Assembly (NCBI GenBank): GCA_021791235.1
Contig: JAJYXA010000522.1
Span: 1-16,541 of the forward strand
DNA length: 16,541 bases
Reading direction: 5' to 3'
Origin: Pseudomonadota bacterium
Lineage (GTDB): Bacteria; Pseudomonadota; Gammaproteobacteria; Burkholderiales; Thiobacillaceae
The notes under the pieces: generated by a model
Seen by the model: only the letters and a program-made list of their open reading frames with translations
Told to the model about the DNA's origin: nothing
Databases searched by the model: none
Made by a program: the position numbers and the translations under genes
In this document: positions 3,417 through 16,541 of the stretch, piece after piece
Position numbering within the stretch: position 1 is the first letter of the stretch
Layout of the letters: each line of letters opens with the position of its first letter

Positions 3417-5221
3417 AAGCCCTGCACCGGCGGCGCCACCTTCATCACTTCCTCGATGGTGGTTAAGCCCGCCGCGATCTTCAGCGCGCCCGAGATGCGC
3501 AGCGGCTTCATGCCTTCGCGCGTGGCCAGCTCGCGGATCCGGGCCAGATCGGCGGCGGCGGTGATCTGCTTGTTGATCTCCGGCGACAGCAGCAGGATTT
3601 CGTAGATGCCGACGCGGCCGCTGTAGCCGGTCATCCGGCATTCCAGGCAGCCCACCGGATGGTAGAGCTTGGCCGGCATCTTGGCTTTCCATGGCGCCAC
3701 CAGCTCGCGCCAGGCCGCCTCGTCCTCGGCGCGCAGGCTGCCTGCCTTCTTGCAGTGCGGGCAGAGCGTCCGGACCAGGCGTTGCGCCATCACGCCGAGT
3801 ATCGTCGAATTGAGCAGGTAGGCCGGCACGCCCAGATCGAGCAGGCGCGTGATCGCCGAAGGGGCGTCGTTGGTGTGCAGCGTCGACAGCACCAGGTGGC
3901 CGGTCAGCGCCGCCTGGATGGCCATGTCGGCGGTCTCCAGATCGCGGATCTCGCCGATCATGATGATGTCCGGGTCCTGGCGCATCAGCGCGCGGATGCC
4001 TTCGGCGAAGCCCATGTCGATGCCCGCGAGCGCCTGCACCTGATTGAAGCTCGGCTCGACCATCTCGATCGGATCCTCGATGGTGCACACATTCACCTCG
4101 GGCGTGGCCAGCGCCTTCAGCGTGGTGTAGAGCGTGGTGGTCTTGCCCGAGCCGGTCGGTCCGGTGACCAGGACGATGCCGTTGGGCTGGGTCGTCATCC
4201 TGCGCCAGCGCTCGCCGTCCTCCTCGGAGAAACCCAGCTCGCGCTCGTCGCGCACCAGCACCTCGGGGTCGAAGATGCGCATCACCAGCTTCTCGCCGAA
4301 CACCGTCGGCAGGGTGGACAGGCGCAGCTCCACCTCGGTGCCGTCGGGGGTGCGCGTCTTGATCCGGCCGTCCTGGGGGCGGCGCTTCTCGACCACGTCC
4401 ATGCGCCCGAGGATCTTGATGCGGCTGGTCATGGCGTTCAGCACCGGCATCGGGATCTGGTACACCTGGTGCAGCACGCCGTCGATGCGGAAGCGCACGA
4501 TGCCTAAGTCGCGCCGCGGCTCGACGTGGATGTCGCTGGCGCGCTGCTCGAAGGCGTATTGCCAGAGCCAGTCGACGATGCGCACGATGTGCTGGTCGTT
4601 GGCGTCGAAGCTGCGGTTGGCCCGGCCCAGTTCGACCAGCTGCTCGAAGTTGGTGAGCCCGGCGCCGCCGACGCTGCCGCCGGTCATCGCGGTCTTCACC
4701 GACTTGGCGAGGTTGTAGAACTCCACCTGGAAGCGCGCGATGGCGTCCGGGTTGGCAATGACGCGGCGGATCTCCTTGCGCAGGATGGGCCGCAACTCCT
4801 CCTCCCAGGCGCGCTGGAAGGGCTCGGCGGTGGCCACCACCACCTCGCGCGCGGTCACCTCCACCGGCAGGACGCGAAAGCGCGTGGCGTAGGCGTTGGA
4901 CACCACTTCGGTGACGGCGGCGAAATCGATCTTGAGCGGATCGATGTGCAGGTATTCCAGCCCGCACCATTGCGCCAGCCATTGGCTCAGCGTCTCGATA
5001 TCGAGGACCCGGTGGGGCGGCCGCGCCGACTTCCATTTCTGCTCGGCCACGACGATCAAGGGATGAATGTCGCCGCGGAAATAGCGCCGCTCCTTGAGGA
5101 AGCGTTCGGCCTCGGGGACGTCGATCAGCCCGTCGGCGGCCAGGGCATCGACCACCTCGACCAGGGTCAGGCGATGTTCCTTCGGTTCCTTGCCCGGCGG
5201 GCTATCAGCGGTGCGCGGCAT
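3413..5221 (-). CDS. GspE/PulE/PilB-family secretion or type IV pilus assembly ATPase
   Basis: A 602-residue cytoplasmic traffic ATPase that powers type II secretion or type IV pilus assembly. The N-terminal region (about 15-180) resembles the GspE N1E/N2 domain. The C-terminal ATPase has Walker A GPTGSGKTTT (354-363), an Asp box I-E-D-P-I-E (381-386), Walker B D-P-D-I-I-M-I-G-E-I-R-D (416-427) and a His box T-L-H-T-N-D-A (447-453). A tetracysteine zinc site follows: C487-x2-C490 and C525-x2-C528. All catalytic elements look intact, and the length is typical. The ATG at 5221 has an AGGA site about nine nt upstream. No other gsp or pil genes are adjacent, so this is an orphan ATPase serving a machine encoded elsewhere. 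Between GspE and PilB the sequence alone does not decide. The preceding minus-strand gene is dsbG-like (83-nt gap), so the two may be co-transcribed. Confidence 0.93.
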   Translation of the reverse strand: MPRTADSPPGKEPKEHRLTLVEVVDALAADGLIDVPEAERFLKERRYFRGDIHPLIVVAEQKWKSARPPHRVLDIETLSQWLAQWCGLEYLHIDPLKIDFAAVTEVVSNAYATRFRVLPVEVTAREVVVATAEPFQRAWEEELRPILRKEIRRVIANPDAIARFQVEFYNLAKSVKTAMTGGSVGGAGLTNFEQLVELGRANRSFDANDQHIVRIVDWLWQYAFEQRASDIHVEPRRDLGIVRFRIDGVLHQVYQIPMPVLNAMTSRIKILGRMDVVEKRRPQDGRIKTRTPDGTEVELRLSTLPTVFGEKLVMRIFDPEVLVRDERELGFSEEDGERWRRMTTQPNGIVLVTGPTGSGKTTTLYTTLKALATPEVNVCTIEDPIEMVEPSFNQVQALAGIDMGFAEGIRALMRQDPDIIMIGEIRDLETADMAIQAALTGHLVLSTLHTNDAPSAITRLLDLGVPAYLLNSTILGVMAQRLVRTLCPHCKKAGSLRAEDEAAWRELVAPWKAKMPAKLYHPVGCLECRMTGYSGRVGIYEILLLSPEINKQITAAADLARIRELATREGMKPLRISGALKIAAGLTTIEEVMKVAPPVQGF

Positions 5222-5304
5222 GGCGGTCCTGCGGGCGGGCTATGGCCGCACTATAGCCGACAAGCGGCAGCGGCTCAACGGCGCGGGACCGCCTCCGGTC
5301 AGGC

Positions 5305-6132
5305 TCAGCGGAATTTGGCGAGCGCCGGGTCGTCGTTCTTCTGCTCGGGCAAGCCGACGATCGCCGGAATGTCGGACAGGCGCGGCATGCCGCTGATCGC
5401 CTTGATCTTGCCGCTCTTGTCCCGCCAGACGATGCCCGGCGTGCCGCCGATGCCGAACTTGTCCATCAGCTCCGCGTTGCTCCGGAGCGCCAGGGCGATC
5501 TGGGGATGCGTGTCGGCGCCGAAGCCGGCCGGAGCGGGCTTGCCCAGGCCGCCGCTTTGCTCCATCTTGCGGAAGGCCGCGGTCTTGTCGGCGGCGGCCA
5601 TGATCGCGATCGCCTTGGGCATGCTGGTGGGTCCCAGCACCGCCACCGGCACCCAGTGGATCTGCAGGCCGACTCTCTCGTAGGCCTGCAGCGCCATCCA
5701 GGTGTAGTGGCAGTAGGGGCAGTTCGGATCGAAGAACACGTAGAGCACGCTCTTGGGATTCTTGGCCGCTCCCTCGACGATGTGCGGCGCCCGGATCAGC
5801 TCCTTCAGCAAGGCCGCGCGGTCGGGCTTGGGAATGTACTGTTCGGCATAGCGTGAGGTGAGATTCCGGCTGTTCTCGTCGATCAGATCGCCGGCGATCA
5901 GCGTCTTGCGATCGGGCGTGGTAAACACCAGCGAATAGTGCCCTTTCTCCGACAGCACCCAGCCGGTGAGCGACGACGCCGCGGGGAAGGTCTTGACCAC
6001 CTTGACGCCGCTATCGACCGCCGCCTGGATCTGCTTCGGGTAACCGGCGGCGAGGCTGGACGCGGGCTGCGCCAGGAGCAGCGGCGCGACGATGAGCGCG
6101 AGGCGGGCGGACGTCTTGAATGCTTCGAACAT
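5305..6132 (-). CDS. dsbG: DsbG/DsbC-type periplasmic thiol:disulfide interchange protein
   Basis: A 275-residue exported thioredoxin-fold protein that reduces or isomerises disulfides, or protects single cysteines from oxidation, in the periplasm. The N-terminus is a signal peptide: positive MFEAFKTSAR, a hydrophobic core, and likely cleavage after S-S-L-A-A (about residue 29). The dimerisation-type N-domain follows. The catalytic motif is F-F-D-P-N-C-P-Y-C (133-141); CPYC is the DsbG form, whereas DsbC has CGYC. The cis-proline loop is G-G-T-P (229-232). The start was placed at 6132, not at the ATGs upstream (6213 or 6144), because GGAG at 6139-6142 gives a proper ribosome site and the signal peptide begins there. 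It lies 83 nt upstream of the gspE-like gene. A link to folding of secreted or pilus proteins is plausible but inferred. Confidence 0.88.
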   Translation of the reverse strand: MFEAFKTSARLALIVAPLLLAQPASSLAAGYPKQIQAAVDSGVKVVKTFPAASSLTGWVLSEKGHYSLVFTTPDRKTLIAGDLIDENSRNLTSRYAEQYIPKPDRAALLKELIRAPHIVEGAAKNPKSVLYVFFDPNCPYCHYTWMALQAYERVGLQIHWVPVAVLGPTSMPKAIAIMAAADKTAAFRKMEQSGGLGKPAPAGFGADTHPQIALALRSNAELMDKFGIGGTPGIVWRDKSGKIKAISGMPRLSDIPAIVGLPEQKNDDPALAKFR

Positions 6133-6258
6133 GCGTTTCTCCATTGCAACAAGCTTGTGGGTGATGGCATCATCGCCGAGTTGCATCCGCACGTGGCGGC
6201 GAGGCTCGACCATTTCCCGCTAATATTAAACTTAAACGATCTGCCCGTGTTCGCCGCC

Positions 6259-7074
6259 ATGCCAGACAGCGCCCGCCTCGATCTTCCCGCCTATCTCGAA
6301 CGCATCGCCTATCGCGGCGAACTGCTGCCCTCGCGGTCGCTGCTGCAGGCGCTGCATCTCGCCCACGCGACGCACATCCCGTTCGAGAATCTCGACGTCC
6401 TGCAAGGCCGCGCCATCCGCCTCGACCTGGCGGGCCTGCAGGCGAAGCTGGTCGCGGGCGGGCGCGGCGGCTACTGCTTCGAGCAGAACCTGCTGTTCCA
6501 GGCCGCCCTCGAGACCCTGGGCTTCGCGGTGCTCCCGCTGGCGGCGCGGGTGCGCTACCGCAGCCAGCGCATCCTGCCGCGCACCCACATGCTGCTCTTG
6601 GTCGAGAGCGACGGCGGGCGCTGGCTGTGCGACGTCGGCTTCGGCGCCGAGGGCCTGCTGCTGCCGGTGCCCTTCGGCACGGCTGAGGAAGTGCGCCACT
6701 TCGCCTGGCGCTACCGCATCGTCCCCGATGAGGGCCAGTGGCTGCTGCAGTCCTGGCAGCAGACGCCGGAACCCGGTTGGCAGGATCTCTACGCCTTCAC
6801 CCTGGAAGCGCAGCATCTCGCCGACTTCGAGATGGCCAACCACTACGTGTCGACGCATCCCGATTCGCGCTTCGTGCAGACGCTGACGGTGCAACTGCCC
6901 ACGCCCGAGGGCCGGCATGTCCTGAGGAACCGCGAGCTGATCTTCGATCGCGGCGCGAGCCTGGACCGCCGCCTGCTGGCCGACGACGAGGAACTGCTAA
7001 TGGTGCTGGCCGGAACCTTCGGCCTGCGCTTTGCCCCGGGCACGCGCTTTCATTACCGCGACGGAGCACCGTAG
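6259..7074 (+). CDS. nat: Arylamine N-acetyltransferase
   Basis: A 271-residue cytoplasmic enzyme transferring acetyl (or another acyl) from CoA to arylamines, arylhydrazines or similar amines by a ping-pong mechanism. The family's cysteine-protease-like triad is complete: C73 in R-G-G-Y-C-F-E-Q-N (69-77), H110 in R-T-H-M-L-L-L (108-114) and D125 in C-D-V-G-F-G (124-129). The early P-F-E-N-L-D block (41-46) is also canonical. The length matches bacterial NATs (about 270-285). The ATG at 6259 was chosen because the homologous region begins right after it (L-P-A-Y-L-E-R-I). The ribosome site is weak, and a GTG 12 nt upstream is possible. It is divergent from dsbG across a 126-nt spacer and is probably monocistronic. 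It is convergent with the XRE regulator 24 nt downstream. The natural substrate is unknown. Confidence 0.94.
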   Translation: MPDSARLDLPAYLERIAYRGELLPSRSLLQALHLAHATHIPFENLDVLQGRAIRLDLAGLQAKLVAGGRGGYCFEQNLLFQAALETLGFAVLPLAARVRYRSQRILPRTHMLLLVESDGGRWLCDVGFGAEGLLLPVPFGTAEEVRHFAWRYRIVPDEGQWLLQSWQQTPEPGWQDLYAFTLEAQHLADFEMANHYVSTHPDSRFVQTLTVQLPTPEGRHVLRNRELIFDRGASLDRRLLADDEELLMVLAGTFGLRFAPGTRFHYRDGAP

Positions 7075-7098
7075 CACCACGAGCAGCTTAGCGTCTAT

Positions 7099-7932
7099 TC
7101 AGATGAGTGGCGGCGCCCCATCGCCTATCTTGATCTCCGCAGCTTCCTCGACAAACGATTTCCACTGTTTCGCTGGCAACCCGAGCTGAAGGGCGACCTC
7201 CCGCACTGCGGACAGATCGTGCGCGCCGCTGATGTTGAGCAGGGTTCCTCTCCGCCATATTTCGTCCCAGTAGGCCCGGAAGAAGTCACGGAAGGGCGCA
7301 CCGGACATGCGCAGCGACGGCCGGCGCTCGGCAGGAGTGCTGGTCCAATACGCGCCCAACAGAAACTCCTCGTCGTCGAAGAAGTAGCCGCCCATCGCGG
7401 GGCTCACCTCGACCAATCCGGGGCAATAACTCTTGACCCAGTACTTGCGGCCATCGTAGCGAAGAATATTCGAGAGCGTTTCCTGAAGCCGTCGGAGGTC
7501 GTAGAAAATCTCGACGCGCAGCACTTCAAGCGTTCCCGACAATAGCCGCTCGGAAACCAGTGTGCGCCACTCCTGCCGAACGTAAGCGGGTGTCGTATAA
7601 GGCGAGGCGAGGCGCAGCGCCTTGAGATTCTGCCTTGCGCGCTTGGTGAGATCGCAAAGCATTGCGGAGAGATGCTCGATCGAATCGAAAGCTATCGCCG
7701 CGGTGGGCGATGAGTGATGGTCCGCGTCTTCATTGAAGAGCGTCTCCAGATCAGCGCCAAGAATCCAGGCGAGGCGAGTTCGATACTTGTCGCGCGGCAA
7801 ATATTTGCCGGCTTCCCACGCTGCAACCGTCGTCACATCGACCTGCAATTGTCCCGCGACATCGCCCCGTGAAAGACCTTTTTCACCCCGCAGACGTTTG
7901 ATTCTCCCCCCTACATTCCCGTGTAACTGCAT
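7099..7932 (-). CDS. XRE-type HTH regulator with large unassigned C-terminal domain
   Basis: A 277-residue protein. Residues about 9-66 form a Cro/CI-type helix-turn-helix: I-K-R-L-R-G-E-K-G-L-S-R-G-D-V-A, then V-D-V-T-T-V-A-A-W-E-A-G-K-Y-L-P-R. The region about 80-245 (from L-K-A-L-R-L-A-S-P-Y through W-R-R-G-T-L-L-N-I-S-G-A) is globular, rich in aromatics and arginine. It resembles ligand-sensing, phospholipase-D-like domains fused to some regulators, although no HxKxxxxD motif is visible, so catalysis is unlikely. The assignment of that domain is tentative. The gene is divergent from the OmpA-lipoprotein operon across 288 nt, a typical arrangement for a local repressor or activator. A run of seven C (7935-7941; G on the coding strand) lies two nt before the ATG and provides a G-rich ribosome site. 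It is convergent with nat. Confidence 0.8.
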   Translation of the reverse strand: MQLHGNVGGRIKRLRGEKGLSRGDVAGQLQVDVTTVAAWEAGKYLPRDKYRTRLAWILGADLETLFNEDADHHSSPTAAIAFDSIEHLSAMLCDLTKRARQNLKALRLASPYTTPAYVRQEWRTLVSERLLSGTLEVLRVEIFYDLRRLQETLSNILRYDGRKYWVKSYCPGLVEVSPAMGGYFFDDEEFLLGAYWTSTPAERRPSLRMSGAPFRDFFRAYWDEIWRRGTLLNISGAHDLSAVREVALQLGLPAKQWKSFVEEAAEIKIGDGAPPLI

Positions 7933-8220
7933 GGCCCCCCCACAGGCATATGACGCAGAATTTCAAAACTCCCGAAAACCCCCAGCAATTCACCCTTGCC
8001 GAGAGAAGGGTATCACTTAACAATCCAGAAAGCATCAATATTTATAGTAAAGGATATATGCATTTAGGAACAAATCTTACGGTTGCTGTTTCACTAGGAC
8101 ATTTTTTCTGCTGACATCGCATCACTTGCAGACGACTGTAAAAAAACCGTCGCTTGGCGAGAAATAAACCGACAAGCATGCAGAAAGCGCTCGTATCGGA
8201 AGGTCAAAAAAGGACAGCAC
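7933..8220. promoter_or_regulatory. AT-rich divergent intergenic region
   Basis: This spacer separates the XRE regulator from the plus-strand envelope operon and should hold both promoters. I see a TATAGT hexamer at 8043-8048 but no convincing -35 partner. A perfect 6-bp hairpin is made by ACCCTT (7992-7997) and AAGGGT (8006-8011). AGGA at 8211-8214 is the ribosome site of the next gene. No promoter can be assigned with confidence and no gene is seen. Confidence 0.4.
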
Positions 8221-9855
8221 ATGCTACTTAAAAAAGTTGGGTTATTTGCAGCTGTGACGGCAACGCTTGGCGGTTGTGCGACCAACCCGCAGACCGGAAA
8301 TCTTGAGATTTCGCCTTCCATTCAACACGGCATCGCATCAGTCAAGAACAAGGTCGTCGATATCTACGATAGCCCAGACCCATGTGCCAACAACGACAGA
8401 AATATTGGAGCCACGGTAGGCGCTTTAGCCGGCGCCATTCTTGGGCATGAAATGAAAAACAACAAATCCGGGACGCTTGTCGGCGCGCTCCTTGGCGCAG
8501 GGGTCGGCGGACTGATCGGGCACAACATGGATACTCGCCGATGCGCGCTTTACAAGATTGCCTTGGCCAACGATCTTAAACTGGCCAGCGCGACGATCAC
8601 TGAACAGAGGCTGGGTGTCAAACCGACGCCTGAGACCAACGTAAAGCATGACCTTGGTCTTGACGTTCAACTGGCCAATAAGCAAGATGAGTTCCAACCC
8701 GGCACGGCAAGGCTCAATCCTCAGGCGCGGCTGTATCTTGGCGAAATAGCGCGCCAGTACACTCCACAGGCACTGGAAGCCTCGCTTGGACCCAAGGCAA
8801 GCCCAGAGCAGCGGCAGCAAATGGCAATCCGGCAGGTGCTGATCGTTGGCCATACCGACGAGAGAGACAACATGCCGGGCGTCGATCTCGCACGACTTTC
8901 GCAGGAGCGGGCGAAGGCTGTGGCGCACGTATTCGCTCAAAGCGGAGTCCCGGCTCGCAATATCTTCTATCAGGGCGCGGGAGACTCTCTACCTCTCAGC
9001 GACAACGCAACTGCCAAGGGCCGTGCTGACAACAATCGCGTGCAAATCGTGGACACGCCGGACCTGCACACGATGACAGCGTTCCTGCAGGCACGCGCAG
9101 CCAACCCCGAGGACTTCGAATCAACCAAGCCGTCAGCCGCTGCCGCCGGGATTATTGGCGGCGCGGCAAGTCAGCCGCAACAGGGATCTACCCTTAGAGC
9201 GATGGCGCAGATCCCGCGCCCGATTCGAATCGCACCGGTCGTAGCGCACGCAGCATCGCCCAAGATTGCAGCAGGTCAGGTGGTGAAAAGCGCATCCGTG
9301 CTCGGCCTGAATGGGCAACCGATGGGGGCTGGGTACAACATTGGCCTCGGCGCACCGATCACTCACTCCTTGTTCTCGATCATTCGAAGTGCATATGCGA
9401 CCGCGCCCGTGATCGTCGGTCCGTGCTGGCAGGACCACCCGCACGGCGCGACCCAGGTGCGCAACTTGTCCAGCGGGGAAGCCCTACCGATTCGCAACGC
9501 CATGCACGGACTGTACGGCGAGCCCTGGTGGGGTCAGCAGAACGACTCCGCGGTAGCCCTGCTGCACACCTATGCGCCGCGTGACGGCGGCGCGCAGGTC
9601 CCGCCGACCACGGTGGAGTTCTATGCGAAGCGTCCGGGTACGACGCAATGGCGCCTGACCGCCAAGGACCTCCAGGCGCCGGTCAACATCTACCGCGGTT
9701 CGCGCTTCACCCTCTATCGCGTATTTTTGCGCAAGCGGGCGCAATGCGTGGATCTCGCGGTTCCCAATGCAACGGCCTCCAGCCACGGCTACGTCATCTA
9801 TCAGGATGCCGGGCGCGAATACGGCGCGTCACTTCAGTTCACGCCGCGTGGATGA
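8221..9855 (+). CDS. OmpA-family lipoprotein with glycine zipper and unassigned C-terminal domain
   Basis: A 544-residue predicted lipoprotein. The signal peptide ends in the lipobox L-G-G-C with C19 as the acylated residue; D/E is absent at +2 (Ala), so outer-membrane sorting is expected. Residues 62-101 form a double glycine zipper (G-A-T-V-G-A-L-A-G-A and G-A-L-L-G-A-G-V-G-G-L-I-G-H), a membrane-associating motif. Residues about 155-278 are an OmpA-like peptidoglycan-binding domain: V-G-H-T-D-E-R (209-215), L-S-Q-E-R-A (227-232), then G-A-G-D and N-N-R-V-Q-I (271-276). The last 260 residues match nothing I recognise. They contain a Ser/Ala/Pro linker (about 300-350) and a Trp/Tyr-rich end, with C402 and C509 that may form a disulfide. 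The ATG at 8221 has AGGA six nt upstream. It is the first gene of a three-gene operon, 22 nt before the next. Confidence 0.85.
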   Translation: MLLKKVGLFAAVTATLGGCATNPQTGNLEISPSIQHGIASVKNKVVDIYDSPDPCANNDRNIGATVGALAGAILGHEMKNNKSGTLVGALLGAGVGGLIGHNMDTRRCALYKIALANDLKLASATITEQRLGVKPTPETNVKHDLGLDVQLANKQDEFQPGTARLNPQARLYLGEIARQYTPQALEASLGPKASPEQRQQMAIRQVLIVGHTDERDNMPGVDLARLSQERAKAVAHVFAQSGVPARNIFYQGAGDSLPLSDNATAKGRADNNRVQIVDTPDLHTMTAFLQARAANPEDFESTKPSAAAAGIIGGAASQPQQGSTLRAMAQIPRPIRIAPVVAHAASPKIAAGQVVKSASVLGLNGQPMGAGYNIGLGAPITHSLFSIIRSAYATAPVIVGPCWQDHPHGATQVRNLSSGEALPIRNAMHGLYGEPWWGQQNDSAVALLHTYAPRDGGAQVPPTTVEFYAKRPGTTQWRLTAKDLQAPVNIYRGSRFTLYRVFLRKRAQCVDLAVPNATASSHGYVIYQDAGREYGASLQFTPRG

Positions 9856-9877
9856 TCACAAAACAGAGAAAATCGCG

Positions 9878-11662
9878 ATGACCTCCCTCATTCATATCAT
9901 TTCATCGATTCCATTTCTAATCTTCGTGGTCTTTGCGACCGCTTTCGGCGTTTTTCTCTATTGGTTACACGCCGACAATTTCAGGTATGCCATGTTCGCA
10001 TACCGGAACTACTGGGCGTTCGGCAGTGACTTCCGCGGAAAACTTGCGCAACTCTCAAACCAAGCCGATGACGACATTGAAGACGAGTACGGACTCGTCG
10101 CCGCCGAGAGGACACTCTGCTCGGACTTCGCGGCAATCATCGCGGGCTCGAAGAACGCCACCGTTTCCAAAAAACAATTCGACCGCGCTCACGAATACCT
10201 GAACATCACCGGACAGAACGACATCCATCCTCCGGGTTTTTTAGCAAAAGTCGGTCTGTTCGTGCTGATCCTTGCCGAGTCTGCAGGTACGGGCTACGTG
10301 CTCGCGCCGTGGATGTCCACCGAAATCACACCATCCCAAGCTAACCTTGCTGCGGGAATCCTGGCCATTGCCGTGGCGATCATGCTCGCAATGCTCACCC
10401 ACCTTTCAGGCTCAATGCTGGCGCAGTACGTCCGCTTCAAGCGCAAGGCGGGCGGCTCGGAGGGGGACGCGAGAAGTATCTCTCTAGGCGATGATCAACG
10501 CCAAGATGCGTATTACATCGACAAAAGCCGGGCGGCATGGGCCGTCAAGCAGAACCCAAACCGTCAGCGCTTCGCGAATCGCGTGCAGGATCCGGGCATC
10601 ATGAGCATTTTCGTGACCGGCCTGTCCACCGCGATCATCTTCGCCATCATGGTGGGCATCTTCGTGATCCGGGTAGAGGGCGTGAATCGGGCGTCGGAGA
10701 AACAGATTGTCTCGATCGAACAGAACGGGGTGTCCGGAGGGGGGGGGAATCCTTTCTCCTCTGCCAACGCGCCGTCACTGCCGCCGGATGTCGCACAGGC
10801 TCAGCAGCAAAGCCGGGAAAACGTGGCCAAGTCGCTCAGCGGCGACTACAAACACGAGGGAGTTGCGGCTTCCTTCATTCTCGCGCTGATCTACTTGGTA
10901 ACGCAATTCACTGCCTTCGTCATTGCCTACCGCTCCGCGTTCAGCGGGCAGGGCCAAGATGCCTATGATTTCACGATGGGCGAGACCTCATTCGATACCT
11001 TCAAGGCAAAATATCTGGAAAATAAGATCAAGCGCGTTGACAGCCTGTTTACCGATCTGCGACAAAAGCGGCACGGCAAGCATCGTCAGGGTACGCTTGG
11101 CTCTTTCTCGGATTATCTTAAAATTAACGCCAAGAAAGAAAGCGACACTCGGCAGAAAGAAATCGAGAGCGCCGCGAATGAAATTGCCTCATCTGTCGAC
11201 AACGAAGAAAAATACAATATCCAGCTCGAAGTTGCCTTGAAGAATTACAACTTCACCGTCGCCGAGCAAGAGATCCTCCACCAGGGCATCCAGCGCATCG
11301 CGGCGCTCCGCGAAAATACGCGCCAGAGCTTCAAGACTCCGCAGGTACCGATGACCGCACCGACCATGCCGGCGCCCTCGGAAACGCCCACGAGGCAGGG
11401 TGACAAGGCAGCTCAGCCCGGTTCTCATCTGATTGCACAGGAGCGGCTCGAGGCTGTGTGCGGCGAAATTCTCGACCAACCCGACAAGGAATCACGGGTT
11501 GGCAAGAAGGAGGAAGTTGTCAGCGCGTTGCGCATGGTGGGGGTCGAGGATCCGGAAACACTGCTGGCTCCGATTCTTGCGAGCCTGAAAAACAGACGTG
11601 ACGAGGAACGCAAGAAACGATCTGTGGCGCAGGAGCTGGATGCGCTTCTGGGTGACGATTAA
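9878..11662 (+). CDS. Five-TM inner-membrane protein with long charged cytoplasmic tail, unknown family
   Basis: A 594-residue protein not matched to a named family. Hydrophobic segments lie at about 8-30, 121-145, 155-178, 241-266 and 330-352. Positive residues after segment 3 (R-F-K-R-K, 186-190) and the charged tail suggest an outside N-terminus, a cytoplasmic 31-120 loop, a periplasmic 267-329 loop (Gly/Ser/Pro/Gln-rich) and a cytoplasmic tail of 240 residues. The tail has coiled-coil-like Lys/Glu helices (375-480), a Pro/Thr/Met-rich linker (488-510) and a charged helical end (520-594). The start at 9878 was chosen over an in-frame ATG at 9767 because the latter would lie inside the OmpA-family gene and add a hydrophilic stretch before TM1. 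Its ribosome site (GAGA) is weak. A nine-G run codes for G288-G290. The short 22-nt and 17-nt gaps to its neighbours indicate co-expression as part of one envelope assembly. Confidence 0.8.
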   Translation: MTSLIHIISSIPFLIFVVFATAFGVFLYWLHADNFRYAMFAYRNYWAFGSDFRGKLAQLSNQADDDIEDEYGLVAAERTLCSDFAAIIAGSKNATVSKKQFDRAHEYLNITGQNDIHPPGFLAKVGLFVLILAESAGTGYVLAPWMSTEITPSQANLAAGILAIAVAIMLAMLTHLSGSMLAQYVRFKRKAGGSEGDARSISLGDDQRQDAYYIDKSRAAWAVKQNPNRQRFANRVQDPGIMSIFVTGLSTAIIFAIMVGIFVIRVEGVNRASEKQIVSIEQNGVSGGGGNPFSSANAPSLPPDVAQAQQQSRENVAKSLSGDYKHEGVAASFILALIYLVTQFTAFVIAYRSAFSGQGQDAYDFTMGETSFDTFKAKYLENKIKRVDSLFTDLRQKRHGKHRQGTLGSFSDYLKINAKKESDTRQKEIESAANEIASSVDNEEKYNIQLEVALKNYNFTVAEQEILHQGIQRIAALRENTRQSFKTPQVPMTAPTMPAPSETPTRQGDKAAQPGSHLIAQERLEAVCGEILDQPDKESRVGKKEEVVSALRMVGVEDPETLLAPILASLKNRRDEERKKRSVAQELDALLGDD

Positions 11663-11679
11663 ACGGAGCAGGAAAGTTC

Positions 11680-12546
11680 ATGAAAACTTTACTTCCACAT
11701 GCTTTGATCGGCGCCGCGCTGGCGTTGTCGTGCGCCGCGCCCGCGCTCGCCGGACTGGTCAACGATGTTCCGAGCTGCTACGCGGCAAACCATTTCACGT
11801 TCCAGTCGGCCGCTCCGGACAAGCTGATTTACGTCCTGATCGACCAGACTGTGCAGATTGATCCGACTCTGCAGCAATCAGTGATCAGCAACATTAATCG
11901 TATGCTCGGCCCACAGACCAAGTTTGTTGTTGCTGAATTCTCCGCGTTCTCTCAAGGCCGGTACCTGAATGTCCTGAATACCGGCATCATCGAGGCACCA
12001 CTGACGCAGGACGAATCAGGCAACGTACCCATGAGTCAATTGCCTAACTTCCATTCCTGCATGAACGGGCAGGCCCAGTTTTCTGTAGCCCTCGCGGACA
12101 AAGCAGCCACTGGCGCCATGCAGGGTGCCACGTCGGCGCTCGATCAGTCCGATATCATGTCCGCCTTGCAGAATGTCTCATCGGCTATCAAGGCAGATCC
12201 TGCCAAAGAAAAGGTTCTGTTCCTGGTTACTGACGGCTTGGAAAACTCCAGCGTAACGAGTTTCTACGCTCACCACGTCGTTAAGAAGATCGATCCGGCC
12301 ACAGAACTGCAGAAGGCGAAATCGGCCAATCTGATCGGTGATTTTGGCGGTGCCAAAGTGTTTGTTCTTGGAGCAGGCACTCTGGCGTCGGCAAAAAATG
12401 GCACGAAGACGGCGCGTGACGGATACCGTGACCCGGTCACTCTAAATCGACTCAAGGAATTCTGGGAGGGTTACTTCAAAGACTCGAACGCTAATCTGGT
12501 TGAGTTCGGTGAGCCCGCTCTTGTCGAACCGACCAGCTTTCAATGA
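11680..12546 (+). CDS. Secreted von Willebrand factor A-like protein
   Basis: A 288-residue protein with a clear signal peptide (M-K-T-L-L-P-H-A, hydrophobic core, cleavage expected after A-P-A-L-A at residue 24), so it is probably periplasmic. The fold cues are a hydrophobic strand ending in Asp (L-I-Y-V-L-I-D-Q-T, 49-57), an amphipathic helix (I-S-N-I-N-R-M-L), and a central strand F-L-V-T-D-G-L-E-N-S-S (181-191). These are the order and spacing of a von Willebrand A domain. The metal-site motif is altered: D55-x-T57 in place of the usual DxSxS, with T184-D185-G186 as the later Asp loop. Three cysteines (C18 in the signal peptide, then C33 and C127) leave a possible C33-C127 disulfide. A GGAG ribosome site lies at 11666-11669. 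It is the third gene of the operon, 17 nt after the membrane protein, and may bind the OmpA-family partner's unassigned domain. That last point is inference. Confidence 0.72.
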   Translation: MKTLLPHALIGAALALSCAAPALAGLVNDVPSCYAANHFTFQSAAPDKLIYVLIDQTVQIDPTLQQSVISNINRMLGPQTKFVVAEFSAFSQGRYLNVLNTGIIEAPLTQDESGNVPMSQLPNFHSCMNGQAQFSVALADKAATGAMQGATSALDQSDIMSALQNVSSAIKADPAKEKVLFLVTDGLENSSVTSFYAHHVVKKIDPATELQKAKSANLIGDFGGAKVFVLGAGTLASAKNGTKTARDGYRDPVTLNRLKEFWEGYFKDSNANLVEFGEPALVEPTSFQ

Positions 12547-12682
12547 TCGAGTGTCATTGACCTGAGAAGCAGGAATGAAGGAGGAAACTTAGCCGAGCAA
12601 TTGATCCACTCGAAAGTTAGGTCAGTTCAGGGAAGGGTACCGTCAGCCTTATCAAAATAAACTTCGCGAAAAGGGGGAAACC
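12547..12682. other. Spacer with crossed inverted repeats and an orphan Shine-Dalgarno
   Basis: The 136-nt spacer between the vWA-like gene and the small membrane gene contains no credible ORF. TCGAGTG (12547-12553) is complementary to CACTCGA (12607-12613), and TGACCT (12558-12563) is complementary to AGGTCA (12619-12624). The order A-B-A'-B' would make a pseudoknot if both paired in RNA. AAGGAGG at 12578-12584 is a perfect Shine-Dalgarno without a suitable start codon after it. Confidence 0.3.
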
Positions 12683-13021
12683 ATGGCAACTCGCATCCCG
12701 ATGAAGCACAAAGAAACCGGCATTATGAAGGATGGTTTTTACGGATTTTCTTGGACTACGCTCTTCTTTGGTTTTTTCCCCGCGCTTTTTCGCGGCGACT
12801 TTATTACGTTTATCGGTGGTTTTGTCATATCCGTAATCATCGGCTTGGTTACGCTCGGCATCGGTGCTTTTTTTATAGGGCTAATCTGGGCCTTCATGTA
12901 CAACAAATACTACACGCGAAAGCTCCTTGAGCGTGGCTACGTACTTGCTGGCAGCGAAGGTGACAATGCACTCGCTGCGTCAGCTCTTGGCATGCTTGCT
13001 CCATCAGTTACTGCCTCATAA
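12683..13021 (+). CDS. Small HrgC/DUF2628-like membrane protein
   Basis: A 112-residue inner-membrane protein. It carries the segment G-F-S-W-T-T-L-F-F-G-F-F-P-A-L-F-R-G-D (21-39), then two hydrophobic stretches (about 41-62 and 63-74) and a Y-N-K-Y-Y-x-R-K-L-L-E-R-G-Y end (73-86). This layout is typical of short proteins labelled HrgC or DUF2628, whose role is unknown. The last 25 residues are Ala/Ser-rich and hydrophilic. The ATG at 12683 has a G-rich ribosome site (GGGGG at 12673-12677) five nt upstream. It lies 136 nt after the vWA-like gene, so it may have its own promoter. Its base composition is the AT-richest of all genes here, in contrast to the regulator genes that follow. It is likely acquired; a functional link to the upstream operon is uncertain. 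Confidence 0.72.
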   Translation: MATRIPMKHKETGIMKDGFYGFSWTTLFFGFFPALFRGDFITFIGGFVISVIIGLVTLGIGAFFIGLIWAFMYNKYYTRKLLERGYVLAGSEGDNALAASALGMLAPSVTAS

Positions 13022-13065
13022 CCTGGCTTGAAATCTCTAGTAAACAGTCATGCCGCTGCTTATGG

Positions 13066-13109
13066 GTAGGTCGGGCTTTACCCGACTGTCGGCCTGAAGG
13101 CCGACCTAC
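13066..13109. repeat. REP-like compound palindrome, possible bidirectional terminator
   Basis: GTAGGTCGG (13066-13074) and CCGACCTAC (13101-13109) form an exact 9-bp outer inverted repeat. Inside are two alternative hairpins: GTCGGG/CCCGAC (13070-13075 with 13081-13086, loop CTTTA) and GTCGGCC/GGCCGAC (13088-13094 with 13099-13105, loop TGAA). This form resembles repetitive extragenic palindromes dispersed in many proteobacterial genomes. It lies in the 168-nt spacer between two convergent genes, where it could stop transcription in both directions. No U-run follows, so it is not a classical intrinsic terminator. Only one copy is in this window. Confidence 0.75.
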
Positions 13110-13189
13110 ATTTGCCGCCCATCGTTGCATCCATCGATTCTTCTATGATTCACTACTAGGGTAAATTCGATCACCCTGTGATGGTACGT

Positions 13190-13876
13190 CTACTGCACGC
13201 GCCGCCCCGCCGCGCCGCTCTTCTGCTCGACGGCGAACACCGCCGCTTCGACGCGCGAGCTCAGGTTGAGCTTGGAGAGGATGTGGCGCACGTGCAGCTT
13301 GACGGTGTCGTGGCTGATGTCGAGCGCCCGGCCGATGGCCTTGTTGGTCAGCCCCCGCGACAGGTAGTCGAGAATCTCGCGTTCGCGCGCGGTGAGCTGC
13401 TTTAGCGCCGACTCCCTGGCGTCGCCCGGTCCGCCGCCTTGCAGCAGATGCACCAGCTTCAAGGTCATCGCCGGCGCCACCACGGTCTCGCCGCGCACCG
13501 CGCGCTGCACGGCGTCGACCACGTCGTCGGGCTCCATGTCCTTCAGCAGATAGCCCTGGGCGCCGCCGCGCAGCGCGCTGGCGAGATCCTCCTCGGCGTC
13601 GCTGACGGTGAGGATCAGCACCGGCCCGCACCATTCGTCGGCACGGATGCGGGTCAGCAGGGATATTCCGCCCAGGGGCGGCATGTTGAGGTCGATGATC
13701 ACCACGTCGGGCGCTTCGTCGTGCAGCAGTTGCAGCGCCTCGTCGGCGTTGCCGGTCATCCCGGCGACGCGGATCGCGCCGCGCTGCTCGAGCAGTTCGG
13801 CCAGTCCCTTCCTGAACAGCGTATGGTCATCGACCAGGAGCACGCGCAGGCGCTCGTCCGCAGTCTGCTCGCTCAT
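13190..13876 (-). CDS. NarL/FixJ-family response regulator
   Basis: A 228-residue DNA-binding response regulator. The receiver domain spans about 10-128: acidic pair D16-D17, phospho-acceptor D62 in I-I-D-L-N-M-P-P-L-G-G, T90 and K112 (Y-L-L-K-D). The LuxR/NarL-type helix-turn-helix spans about 160-214 (L-T-A-R-E-R-E-I-L-D-Y-L, then N-K-A-I-G-R-A-L-D-I-S-H-D-T-V-K-L-H-V-R-H-I-L-S-K-L). All phosphorylation residues are present. Its start overlaps the stop of the upstream histidine kinase by ATGA (13873-13876), so the pair is co-translated and almost certainly cognate. Relatives control nitrate/nitrite or redox responses, but the regulon here is unknown; the nnrS cluster in the same window is a speculative target. 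No terminator is visible directly after the stop. Confidence 0.92.
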   Translation of the reverse strand: MSEQTADERLRVLLVDDHTLFRKGLAELLEQRGAIRVAGMTGNADEALQLLHDEAPDVVIIDLNMPPLGGISLLTRIRADEWCGPVLILTVSDAEEDLASALRGGAQGYLLKDMEPDDVVDAVQRAVRGETVVAPAMTLKLVHLLQGGGPGDARESALKQLTAREREILDYLSRGLTNKAIGRALDISHDTVKLHVRHILSKLNLSSRVEAAVFAVEQKSGAAGRRVQ

Positions 13877-15123
13877 TGGCGCTTTCCGCTCGCCGGCGCC
13901 GGGAAGGACAGGCGCATGCGCACGCCGCCGGCGGGCAGGTTGGCGACGTCGATGCGGCCGCCCAGCCGCTGCGCCCGTTCGCGCATGATGGCCAGGCCGA
14001 AGTGATCGCGCAGGCGCGGGTGCTCGTCGAAGCTGCCGATCGGATTGGCCACCACGAAGAAGCCCTGCCCGCCCTTGCCGTTGTCCTCGACCGTCACCTG
14101 GTAGTGGTCATTGATCTGCTCCAGCAGCAGGCCCGCCCGGCTGGCGCCGGAATGGCGCACGACGTTGGCCAGCGCCTCCTGGATGATGTAGAAGACCTGG
14201 GCCTCCTGGTCGACGCTGAGATTGAGGTCCATGATCCGGTTGTCGTAGTCGAGCGCGATGCCGGTGCGCTCCTGAAAGGCGGCAGACATCTCCGCCAGCG
14301 CATGGAGCAGGCCCAAGGGGTCCATCCGGTTGCGGTACTGGGTGATCAGCTGGCGCAGGCCGGTGTAGGCGTCGTCGAGCGCCTGGCTCACGTCGCCGGC
14401 GTACTTGTCGGCGCGCTCGGTCTGCCCGTCGCCGAGCGCGTCCTGGAGCAGCGCCATGCGCATCTTCATGTAGGCGAGAGACTGCGCCAGCGAATCGTGC
14501 ACCTCGTTGGCCATCATCTGGCGCTCGGTCATCAGGGTGATGCGCAGGTTCTCGCGCGTCAGACGGACGTTCTCCAGCGCCATCCCCAGGTGTTCGCCGA
14601 TCGAGCGGAACAGCAGCGCCACCTCCTCGGGCAGTTCGAAGCGCTCGGCCAGGAACAGGTTGTAGGCCCCGAGCAGCTTGCCGCGGTAGCGCAGCGGCAC
14701 CACCACCATCGCCTGGCACTTGCCGTCGAAGAAGGGCAGACCGGTGACCGCGGCGCAGTCGTGCATGTCGATCGAGAAGCTGGTGCGGTTCTCGCGCATC
14801 GACTGGCCGCAGCTGCCGCAGCTCAAGGGCATCAGGTGCTCGCGCGCGACGAAATCGGCGGGCAGGCCGAGCGAGCCGACCAGGCGCAGATGCGCGCCGT
14901 CGCTGGTGAGCAGGCGCACGGCGCCGCCCTGGGCGCCGGCCAGGCGGATCATGGTGCTCAGGAAGCGGCCGAGCAGCGCCTCGATGTCGCTGTCGCCGGC
15001 CAGGTTGGCGGTGACCTCGGAGAGGATGTGCAGGGCCTGCAGCTTGTAGCTGCCGTCCGCATCCTGATCGCCCTGCGCGCTATGCGCCAAAGGCACACGC
15101 TGGGCGCTGTCGGCAGCGCGCAT
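13873..15123 (-). CDS. Soluble GAF-domain histidine kinase, NarX/HisKA_3 type
   Basis: A 416-residue sensor kinase without membrane segments, hence cytoplasmic sensing. Residues about 44-190 form a GAF domain with four cysteines, C102-x2-C105-x17-C123-x12-C136, that could bind a metal or Fe-S cluster, or act as a thiol switch. The HisKA_3 dimerisation domain has phospho-acceptor H209 in A-N-E-V-H-D-S-L-A-Q-S-L-A-Y-M-K, close to the NarX sequence (R-E-L-H-D-S-L-A-Q-S-L). The ATPase domain shows an N-box E-A-L-A-N-V-V-R-H-S (316-325), G1 D-N-G-K-G (347-351) and G2 F-G-L-A-I-M-R-E-R-A (375-384). The start at 15123 was chosen over 15192 because AAGGAG lies eight nt upstream and the longer form adds only a hydrophilic tail. 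It is coupled to the NarL-type regulator by ATGA. The signal is inferred to be redox, O2 or NO, not proven. Confidence 0.9.
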   Translation of the reverse strand: MRAADSAQRVPLAHSAQGDQDADGSYKLQALHILSEVTANLAGDSDIEALLGRFLSTMIRLAGAQGGAVRLLTSDGAHLRLVGSLGLPADFVAREHLMPLSCGSCGQSMRENRTSFSIDMHDCAAVTGLPFFDGKCQAMVVVPLRYRGKLLGAYNLFLAERFELPEEVALLFRSIGEHLGMALENVRLTRENLRITLMTERQMMANEVHDSLAQSLAYMKMRMALLQDALGDGQTERADKYAGDVSQALDDAYTGLRQLITQYRNRMDPLGLLHALAEMSAAFQERTGIALDYDNRIMDLNLSVDQEAQVFYIIQEALANVVRHSGASRAGLLLEQINDHYQVTVEDNGKGGQGFFVVANPIGSFDEHPRLRDHFGLAIMRERAQRLGGRIDVANLPAGGVRMRLSFPAPASGKRQ

Positions 15124-15193
15124 GTCCCTATCTCCTTGGTGGTTATGGTGCCGTCTCCGCAGCCCGTTCGCTTGCGGGACGCTCGATCTCATT

Positions 15194-15760
15194 TTATGCC
15201 GGAATTTCCCAAGTCCCGGAAAAGATTTTCTCCGCCCAGAACAGGCCCGCGATGGTCTTGCCGTCGGTGATCTCGCCGTCGCGTACGGCCGCCAGGGCGT
15301 CGGCCAGGCTGAGTTCGACGACCTCGAGGAATTCCTCGTGATCGCGCTCGTGGCCGACGTAACTGAGGCCGTGGGCCAGGAACAGCTCGATTTTCTCGTT
15401 GGCGTAGCCGATGCACGGATGAATGAGGGCCAGCTGGCGCCAGCTCCTCGCCTTGTAGCCGGTCTCCTCGCGCAGCTCGCGCCGGGCGGTGTCGAGCGCC
15501 GGTTCGCCCGGGTCGATCTTGCCCGCGGGCAGTTCGAGGAAAACCTGGTGCAGCGGATAGCGGTACTGGCGCTCGAACAGCAGGCGGCCGTTGTCCAGCA
15601 CCGCGATCACCGCCACCGCGCCGGGATGCGCGATGTGCTCGCGTTCCGCTTCGCGCCCGTCGGGCAGGCGGACGCGGTCGCGCAAGACCGTGAGCAGGCG
15701 CCCCGAGAACACCTCCTCGCTGGAAATCCGGGTCTCAACGAGATGTTCGTCGTCGCTCAC
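15194..15760 (-). CDS. NUDIX hydrolase, probable ADP-ribose/ADP-sugar pyrophosphatase
   Basis: A 188-residue cytoplasmic hydrolase that likely splits ADP-ribose or related NDP-sugars into AMP plus sugar phosphate. The complete Nudix box lies at residues 80-102 (G-x5-E-x7-R-E-L-R-E-E-T-G-Y), with the metal-binding glutamates in R-E-L-R-E-E. The upstream L-E-L-P-A-G and the H-P-G-A-V-A-V-I-A-V strand are as in the ADP-ribose pyrophosphatase group. The start codon is GTG at 15758-15760, with a weak ribosome site; no in-frame ATG occurs early enough to keep the domain, so GTG is preferred. It lies 21 nt after the nuoN stop and 70 nt before the kinase gene on the same strand. In many betaproteobacteria a NUDIX gene follows nuoN, often after a small DUF2818 gene that is absent here. 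Confidence 0.9.
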   Translation of the reverse strand: MSDDEHLVETRISSEEVFSGRLLTVLRDRVRLPDGREAEREHIAHPGAVAVIAVLDNGRLLFERQYRYPLHQVFLELPAGKIDPGEPALDTARRELREETGYKARSWRQLALIHPCIGYANEKIELFLAHGLSYVGHERDHEEFLEVVELSLADALAAVRDGEITDGKTIAGLFWAEKIFSGTWEIPA

Positions 15761-15781
15761 GGAGCGCGCAGCAGTCTCGAG

Positions 15782-16541
15782 CTACAGCGAGCGGAGCAGC
15801 GTGAAGCTGCACAGGCTCATGAGCACCTGCGGAAACAGGCCGAACAGCGCCACCGCCAGACCGTTGGCCGAGAGCACCAGGCGCATGTCGAAGCTGGCGG
15901 CGATCGGCGCATTGTCGGTGGGCGGGTCGAAGTACATCAGCTTGACCACCCGCAGGTAGTAGAAGGCGCCGATCAGCGAGAAGAACACCGCGAGCACGGC
16001 GAGCCAGACGTGGCCGGTATCGACCACCGCCAGCAGCACCGAGAACTTGGCGAAGAAGCCGATGAAGAAGGGCACGCCGGCCATCGAGAACATCAGCATG
16101 GCCATCATCGCCGCGAACCACGGGCTGCGCTGGTTCAGGCCCTTGAAGTCGTCGAGGTTCTCGGCCTCGAAGCCGGGACGCGACAAGAGCAGGATCATGC
16201 CGAAGGTGCCCAGGCTCATCAGCACGTAGGACACCGTGTAGTACAGCGCCGAGCTGTAGGCGTTCAGGGCGAAGTGCCGGTCGCCGGCGGCCACACCGCT
16301 GATCAGGCCGAGCAGCATGTAGCCCATGTGCGAGATGGTGGAGTAGGCCAGCATGCGCTTGAGATTGGTCTGGGCGATCGCGGCGAGGTTGCCCAGCGCG
16401 ATCGACAGCACCGCCATGATCATCAGCATCGCCTGCCACTGGTCGGCCAGCTCGAACAGGCCATACACCAGGAGGCGCATCGCCATGGCGAAGGCCGCCA
16501 GCTTCGGCGCGGTACCGATGAACAGCGTCACCGCGGTGGGC
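15782..16541 (-). CDS. nuoN: NADH-quinone oxidoreductase subunit N, C-terminal half (5' end outside window)
   Basis: Proton-translocating membrane subunit of respiratory complex I. About 252 residues are visible; the frame is open at the window edge ([17 protein letters not shown]), and full-length NuoN is about 485 residues, so roughly the C-terminal half is present. Family landmarks are the A-P-K-L-A-A-F segment, [16 protein letters not shown] (with the conserved Lys of the antiporter channel), and the broken-helix [12 protein letters not shown]. At least six hydrophobic helices are visible, and the stop (TAG) is at 15782-15784. As the last gene of the nuo operon in most bacteria, it places the window at the end of the complex I cluster. 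The NUDIX gene follows after 21 nt. Confidence 0.95.

Follow-up and report, generated by a model that had tools for sequence, protein, structure and literature searches.

The stretch of DNA analyzed here, referred to as the window, comprises 16,541 nucleotides (nt) of contig JAJYXA010000522.1 from a member of the Thiobacillaceae. It carries three intact genes, denoted A, B, and C, on the plus strand with spacings of 22 and 17 nt, and the open reading frames (ORFs) agree with the first-pass annotation of this DNA, which had described an operon of an OmpA-type lipoprotein, a membrane protein, and a von Willebrand factor A (vWA)-like secreted protein. None of the libraries searched contains a named system corresponding to the trio, which may nevertheless have been described elsewhere, and the anatomy of the three products suggests that they likely form one complex across the cell envelope. 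The genes and their main features are as follows, where TM denotes transmembrane and MIDAS denotes the metal ion-dependent adhesion site.

8221..9855, + strand: gene A, encoding a putative outer-membrane lipoprotein that contains a glycine zipper plus an OmpA domain
8275..8277, + strand: codon of the lipobox Cys19 of A, invariant in 17 aligned A proteins
8404..8538, + strand: glycine zipper of A, residues 62-106 (PF13488)
8821..9033, + strand: OmpA peptidoglycan-binding domain of A, residues 201-271 (PF00691)
9253..9852, + strand: C-terminal region of A, about 200 aa, with invariant Cys402 and Cys509
9878..11662, + strand: gene B, five-TM protein, predicted to reside in the inner membrane; its long tail is predicted to be cytoplasmic
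10277..10279, + strand: codon of Glu134 of B, located mid-way along TM segment 2 and conserved without exception in an alignment of 37 B proteins
11680..12546, + strand: gene C, exported protein with a predicted vWA fold and a MIDAS-like site
11842..11850, + strand: Asp55-x-Thr57 of C, candidate MIDAS loop 1 (Asp55 in 52/52 proteins; Thr57 in 51/52, Ser in one)
12148..12150, + strand: Ser157 of C, candidate MIDAS loop 2 (Ser in 45/52, Thr in 7/52)
12232..12234, + strand: Asp185 of C, candidate MIDAS loop 3 (52/52)

The three genes and the insert that carries them

The glycine zipper and the OmpA domain of A both score above the Pfam cut-offs, the latter with 46.7 bits against PF00691 (curated cut-off, 27.2), and the solved structure closest to the OmpA domain is that of YfiB (profile E 3.2e-23). 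All 17 aligned proteins keep the LS-x-x-RA motif and the GH of GHTD, and the Asp of GHTD is absent in two of them (L012 and L020); we take the residues of both motifs to have a role in peptidoglycan binding. The C-terminal region gave nothing below E 0.1 in a search of Protein Data Bank (PDB) sequences, and hydropathy indicates no TM segment in A. A lipoprotein without Asp at position +2 is sorted to the outer membrane, and A would be located there. The invariant cysteine pairs in A and C are consistent with export.

Five hydrophobic segments and a tail of approximately 244 residues were identified in B, which is predicted to lie in the inner membrane. The B protein of the window has no match in Pfam or PHROGs at E 1, and its single NCBIfam match is far under the cut-off. 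Among 17 B proteins, none matched Pfam MotA_ExbB at E 0.1, and the strong Pfam matches are zinc ribbons only, which occur in the Aliarcobacter B alone (Aliarcobacter cibarius, L017 6295-7902; Zn_Ribbon_1, E 1.8e-13). Besides Glu134, ten residues are invariant in the 37 aligned proteins, including Gly178, Asp210, Arg235, Arg265, and Gln343. The structural model of B contains two long helices, 242-285 and 303-353, which would form a periplasmic hairpin. This model is of moderate confidence (pTM 0.63) and has no match among solved structures, which does not establish a new fold.

The Pfam match of C is weak (E 0.056), and its predicted structure is a Rossmann-like vWA fold. In an alignment of 52 proteins, consisting of those of the trio type and those encoded without A and B (C-only), Cys33 and Cys127 are kept throughout. 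Asp55, Thr57, Ser157, and Asp185 are presumably the MIDAS positions; the final Ser of the classical motif (DxSxS, T, D) is not conserved in the 52 proteins. C would lie between the two membranes, in the periplasm.

B and C correspond to no named family in Pfam, NCBIfam, PADLOC, PHROGs, or the PDB sequences, none of these libraries lists the trio as a system, and no description of it was found in the open-licence literature of PubMed Central (PMC), most subscription papers being outside this scope.

The trio is contained in an accessory insert, because the nearest genome compared (G001), approximately 99.5% identical on both flanks, lacks 7050-13186. The features of the insert are as follows.

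7050..13186, strand not applicable: 6.1-kb accessory insert with the trio; the near-identical draft genome G001 has 21 bp in its place
7099..7932, - strand: divergent helix-turn-helix regulator (HTH_31, 36.4 bits)
12683..13021, + strand: small membrane protein, phrog_4915 (PHROGs E 6e-35)

G001 is a draft of 310 contigs. Its contig C194 (3482 bp) consists of window 3741-7049 (99.5%), the 21 bp, and then 13187-13338 (95.4%), and contig C190 spans 13213-16541 at 99.5%. At the border of the insert site, C190 and C194 overlap by exactly 127 bp, as is usual where an assembly graph branches, so that a second path into C190, perhaps from another strain, may be present in the G001 sample. The 6.1-kb insert, which G001 lacks, comprises the trio, the divergent regulator, and the small membrane protein; its gain and its loss are both possible.

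Between positions 8001 and 12800, 800-bp bins have a GC content of 0.51-0.64, lower than that of the flanks (mostly 0.63-0.70). No clear target-site duplication or terminal repeat was found at the ends of the insert, and no transposase or integrase was seen among its five genes. Neither the regulator nor the small membrane protein has a relative in the 17 loci compared, and the latter is probably a passenger. A short repeat at 13036-13160, by the end of the insert, resembles many stretches in genomes of the same genus.

Distribution and co-inheritance of the trio

Profile searches of the collected loci recovered A-B-C, in the same order and on the same strand, in all 26 longer loci with B, a set that includes the window and some near relatives; two further Pantoea loci have the same arrangement by annotation. 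The short loci L004-L010 and L025-L050, superseded by longer versions, were excluded from the counts, as were L019, whose contig starts 415 bp before C, and L066, a weak match of 62 aa. Most of these loci were found via C and three via B; the independent evidence is therefore the adjacent A and B, together with A and C at the three loci found via B. The trio occurs in alpha-, beta-, gamma-, and epsilonproteobacteria (Campylobacterota) with differing flanks. The start of C overlaps B by 4 nt in seven loci, and 1046 nt separate B from C in L051. The pairwise distance matrices correlate with r of 0.85 (A-B), 0.92 (A-C), and 0.84 (B-C), values that were each reached in 0 of 2000 permutations, which fits joint inheritance and is also expected from joint transfer alone, without proving contact.

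The first-pass annotation had named homologues lying apart elsewhere, or a match of each gene to a system already described, as results that would speak against it, and neither was observed. One correction concerns C, which also occurs without A and B, so that only the loci with B are trios. The annotation had also suggested a survey of neighbourhoods: in the loci compared, the trio keeps its order and lies on plasmids in some cases, and the matches to defence models nearby are scattered.

Protein searches yielded 25 B relatives and 359 C relatives. Among the matches listed, which for C are the best 120 of the 359, the names are hypothetical or uncharacterized, and once VWFA domain-containing protein. 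B was found in Paraburkholderia ferrariae, P. tropica, and Trinickia symbiotica by a scan of genome contigs. The plasmid search with C matched 20 of 72,556 records (12 Pantoea, 3 Paraburkholderia, 2 Caballeronia, and 1 each of Acidiphilium, Aeromonas, and Aliarcobacter), 9 of which were examined at the locus level. The Aeromonas caviae record (L016), 4.9 Mb long and labelled as a plasmid, is probably a chromosome and has a second C-like place.

In genomes sampled from the taxa around G001, C was found in 7 of 399 at the order level, 16 of 369 at the class level, and 10 of 398 at the phylum level. The order-level matches are six trios and one locus cut by a contig end; the class-level matches are three trios, ten C-only loci, two remote loci, and one weak short match; and the phylum-level matches are eight trios, two of them already counted, and two remote loci. 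B was absent from 101 relatives of G001. No match to the Aeromonas trio was found in E. coli, a weak test made by nucleotide comparison only. Phage cargo was considered and set aside: the C of the window and the Aeromonas B had no match in 50,697 phage records, and C had none in viral contigs.

Several plasmid copies of the trio lie close to insertion sequences, and Pantoea sp. SO10 carries it at a site other than that in P. agglomerans. In L051, the trio lies between integrase-like and nuoN-like genes (L051 4536-6113 and 13794-15260; named by eye), and this nuoN-like gene is related to one located approximately 3 kb from the trio of the window, possibly marking a shared integration region. 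Among the 117 flanking proteins of 18 trio loci, one family is shared by three loci and five families by two. One of these shared families is an LpxR-like gene, which directly follows C in L072 and lies near C in L071.

Relatives of C outside the trio

In a tree of 41 C proteins, the ten C-only proteins lie on one side of a branch with support of 100/98. The trio label requires two changes on this tree, with the trio proteins L059 and L072 branching apart, and the remote rows form long branches. L056 was classed as C-only by its position in the tree, its contig starting 27 bp before C. An FlgT-like gene lies within approximately 1 kb of C in eight of the ten loci, an LPP20-like gene in eight, and a PilZ-like gene in seven, where FlgT and LPP20 were checked against Pfam in L058 only and PilZ was named by eye; the exceptions for flgT are L056 (contig end) and L061 (other neighbours). 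In L053-L055, L057, L058, L060, L062, and L063, the C-only gene is divergent from the LPP20-like gene and flgT, and the PilZ-like gene lies further along in seven of these eight. A two-gene version occurs in L064, L065, and L073, where a multi-TM protein with a long N-terminal part is closely followed by an exported C-like protein.

A four-gene operon was found in alphaproteobacteria, in the order of a B-like gene, a C-like gene, a weakly MotA-like gene, and a gene for a TM-anchored OmpA protein, in all nine loci examined (L074, 4891-10163; L120-L125, L128, and L129), eight of which came from 24 plasmid records matching the B-like protein. Seven of the nine were used to build profiles, and L128 and L129 are therefore the independent cases. 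The C of the trio and the alphaproteobacterial C-like family gave an hhalign probability of 98% (E 1.6e-13), a profile match indicating that the two C families are homologous. The OmpA protein has its best match to PomB, followed by MotS and MotB. The indication that the third gene is MotA is weak (Pfam E 0.0071 in L074; family hhalign E 0.084). An SNase gene lies close by in six of the nine loci, several having signal-peptide-like starts by eye. The OmpA protein of L074, which is not one of the six, itself bears GmrSD_C, an HNH domain, with 44.2 bits (cut-off, 23). We know of no name for this operon, which is a candidate for a system of its own. The Rhizobium vWA gene RL3273 of an attachment paper, as far as the available part of that text goes (PMC11406972), was not linked to the C family here.

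Possible roles and comparison with known systems

The C homologues recur beside machines linked to peptidoglycan, namely next to flgT in the C-only loci and to the PomB/MotB-like OmpA proteins in alphaproteobacteria. In the reading that we tentatively prefer, at somewhat below an even chance, A, B, and C are one mobile, peptidoglycan-anchored trans-envelope complex that acts as an accessory guard of the envelope. A would be tethered by its lipid in the outer membrane and grip peptidoglycan with its OmpA domain, B would span the inner membrane with its periplasmic hairpin and its cytoplasmic tail, and C would be a periplasmic adaptor linking A to B, perhaps via the metal site. The trio would work in the manner of stator machines, such as Zorya, MotAB, and Tol-Pal, with a membrane part of no detectable homology to theirs, in which Glu134 might contribute to the passage of ions or the sensing of tension. 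A disturbance of the peptidoglycan or the outer membrane, for example by entering DNA, would be detected and passed via B to the cytoplasm. The genes, their order and co-inheritance, the presence or absence of the insert, the predicted fold of C, and the family relations are direct results of the analysis, whereas the guarding role and the energization are speculative. The leaning towards immunity comes from the patchy spread of the trio, its layout resembling that of Zorya, as presented in the part of the Zorya paper available (PMC11890865), and the nucleases of the alphaproteobacterial relatives.

Several results weigh against the envelope-guard reading. PADLOC gave nothing better than E 0.0005 for the 17 B proteins. 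The B profile aligned with the MotA/ExbB/TolQ-type ORFs of three genomes at an hhalign E of only 0.35, where the control (E 1.8e-25) was a member of the ORF set and hence a self-match, and where the ORFs were chosen by position, possibly including wrong ones; since B has no detectable homology to these channels, the energization depends on the single residue Glu134. The resemblance of B to the alphaproteobacterial B-like proteins is no more than suggestive of homology (hhalign E 0.0018, probability 15%), and the short alignment pairs Glu134 with a TM-segment Glu invariant in seven of those proteins. No relative of the alphaproteobacterial SNase, nor of the third and fourth genes of that operon, was found in the 26 trio loci, and the FlgT-, LPP20-, and PilZ-like genes occur in none of the 26 trio loci and none of the four remote loci. 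The contacts among A, B, and C are themselves deduced from anatomy, and joint transfer by itself could account for the distance correlations. Furthermore, both P. agglomerans plasmids examined have the trio at the same site and beside the same genes, like a stable gene set.

The flanking genes add to these points, as the 117 flanking proteins gave scattered matches to at least 25 PADLOC models; of the first 25, all but one were matched by a single protein. Some of the matches were strong (such as DrmD and HNH models), and because there is no baseline of random genes, the counts neither support nor refute a link to defence islands. The DrmD, HNH, and mad3 matches were not assigned to a locus. 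Among ten flanking proteins scanned singly, only the PifA-like gene near L002 matched. The trio itself is only weakly tied to defence.

Because the trio loci lack the SNase and a clear defence neighbourhood, a non-immune role follows closely, in which the trio is a module of envelope stability or of the cell surface that stiffens or monitors the envelope as an optional addition to Tol-Pal. We regard this as unlikely on balance, yet a serious contender. The OmpA and glycine-zipper parts of A resemble envelope-maintenance proteins, and the stable site in P. agglomerans and the inconsistency of defence neighbours across trio loci fit such a module, whereas the patchy spread, the presence or absence as an insert, and the nucleases that adjoin the OmpA protein, or are carried on it, in the alphaproteobacterial relatives speak against it.

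A wider proposal, which we consider rather doubtful, is that the multi-TM/vWA pair serves as a transferable coupling unit, joined in different lineages to different peptidoglycan-anchored machines. The trio would then represent a novel kind of mobile immune machine that senses the envelope and whose membrane protein is unrelated to MotA. The pair would be combined with an OmpA lipoprotein in the trio and with a PomB/MotB-like pair and exported nucleases in alphaproteobacteria, and the vWA protein would act alone at the flagellar H-ring locus. If A, B, and C are one machine, they would constitute a trans-envelope system of wide distribution whose membrane part belongs to no known family, mostly annotated as hypothetical protein. 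One vWA family tied to both flagellar ring genes and nuclease-flanked operons offers a connection between immunity and force-bearing envelope machines that can be tested.

The motor genes near C in the C-only loci also suggest a flagellar accessory, with C as a partner of the stator or of a ring in the periplasm and the trio as a transferable part for tuning the motor; their absence from the trio loci and the well-supported separation of the C-only proteins make this improbable. It is slightly less probable still that the trio is a transferred operon whose products work separately rather than in one complex, as the occurrence of C without A and B in one clade might suggest, because the order and strand are constant in spite of different flanks and C overlaps B in seven loci. 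An apparatus for secretion or surface display, exporting or anchoring something outside, would agree with the predicted parts in the inner membrane, periplasm, and outer membrane and is very improbable, given that the outer-membrane efflux family, LpxR, and ABC ATPase each have two matches among the flanking proteins and no flanking family occurs in more than three loci.

The view that the trio has no MotA-type channel and lies outside Zorya, Tol-Pal, and the type VI secretion system (T6SS) was supported by the comparison with these systems. The trio shares with Zorya an OmpA-type peptidoglycan-binding domain, a membrane protein with a long cytoplasmic tail, and a patchy spread. In contrast, B is not detectably similar to the MotA-like ZorA, and A is a lipoprotein with a lipobox and no TM segment, whereas ZorB is TM-anchored; A matches ZorB3 over residues 207-282, its OmpA part (E 4.3e-9). 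With neither the MotA-like channel nor the ZorB-type TM protein found, membership in Zorya was rejected. No ZorC, ZorD, ZorE, ZorF, or ZorG match was obtained in PADLOC for A, B, and C of the window or the 17 B proteins; the scan of the flanks covered 117 proteins of 18 loci and the first 25 models. In the available part of the Zorya paper, the term von Willebrand does not occur and no vWA protein is named, and the extra genes of Zorya III encode DUF3348 and DUF2894 proteins (PMC11890865), neither of which matches B or C in Pfam.

Tol-Pal likewise combines an outer-membrane lipoprotein carrying an OmpA domain with an inner-membrane partner. However, A scores 25.2 bits on the Pal equivalog model, whose cut-off is 125.35, and no TolQ-type match was detected for B. 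The match of A to TssL with an OmpA extension, 57.9 bits against a cut-off of 139.8, involves the OmpA part only, and T6SS was rejected. The first half of A has the domain order of the YiaD-type glycine-zipper/OmpA lipoproteins; it differs in its score of 90.5 bits (equivalog cut-off, 175) and in its extra C-terminal region of approximately 200 aa. Compared with MotAB/PomAB and their accessory rings, the trio has no detectable MotA homologue and no flgT, LPP20-like, or PilZ-like neighbours; the resemblance consists of the peptidoglycan anchor and of the C-only clade adjoining flgT. The alphaproteobacterial operon differs from the trio in its PomB/MotB-like OmpA and weakly MotA-like proteins and in the frequent SNase nearby, and is like it in that a C homologue follows a multi-TM protein with an invariant TM Glu.

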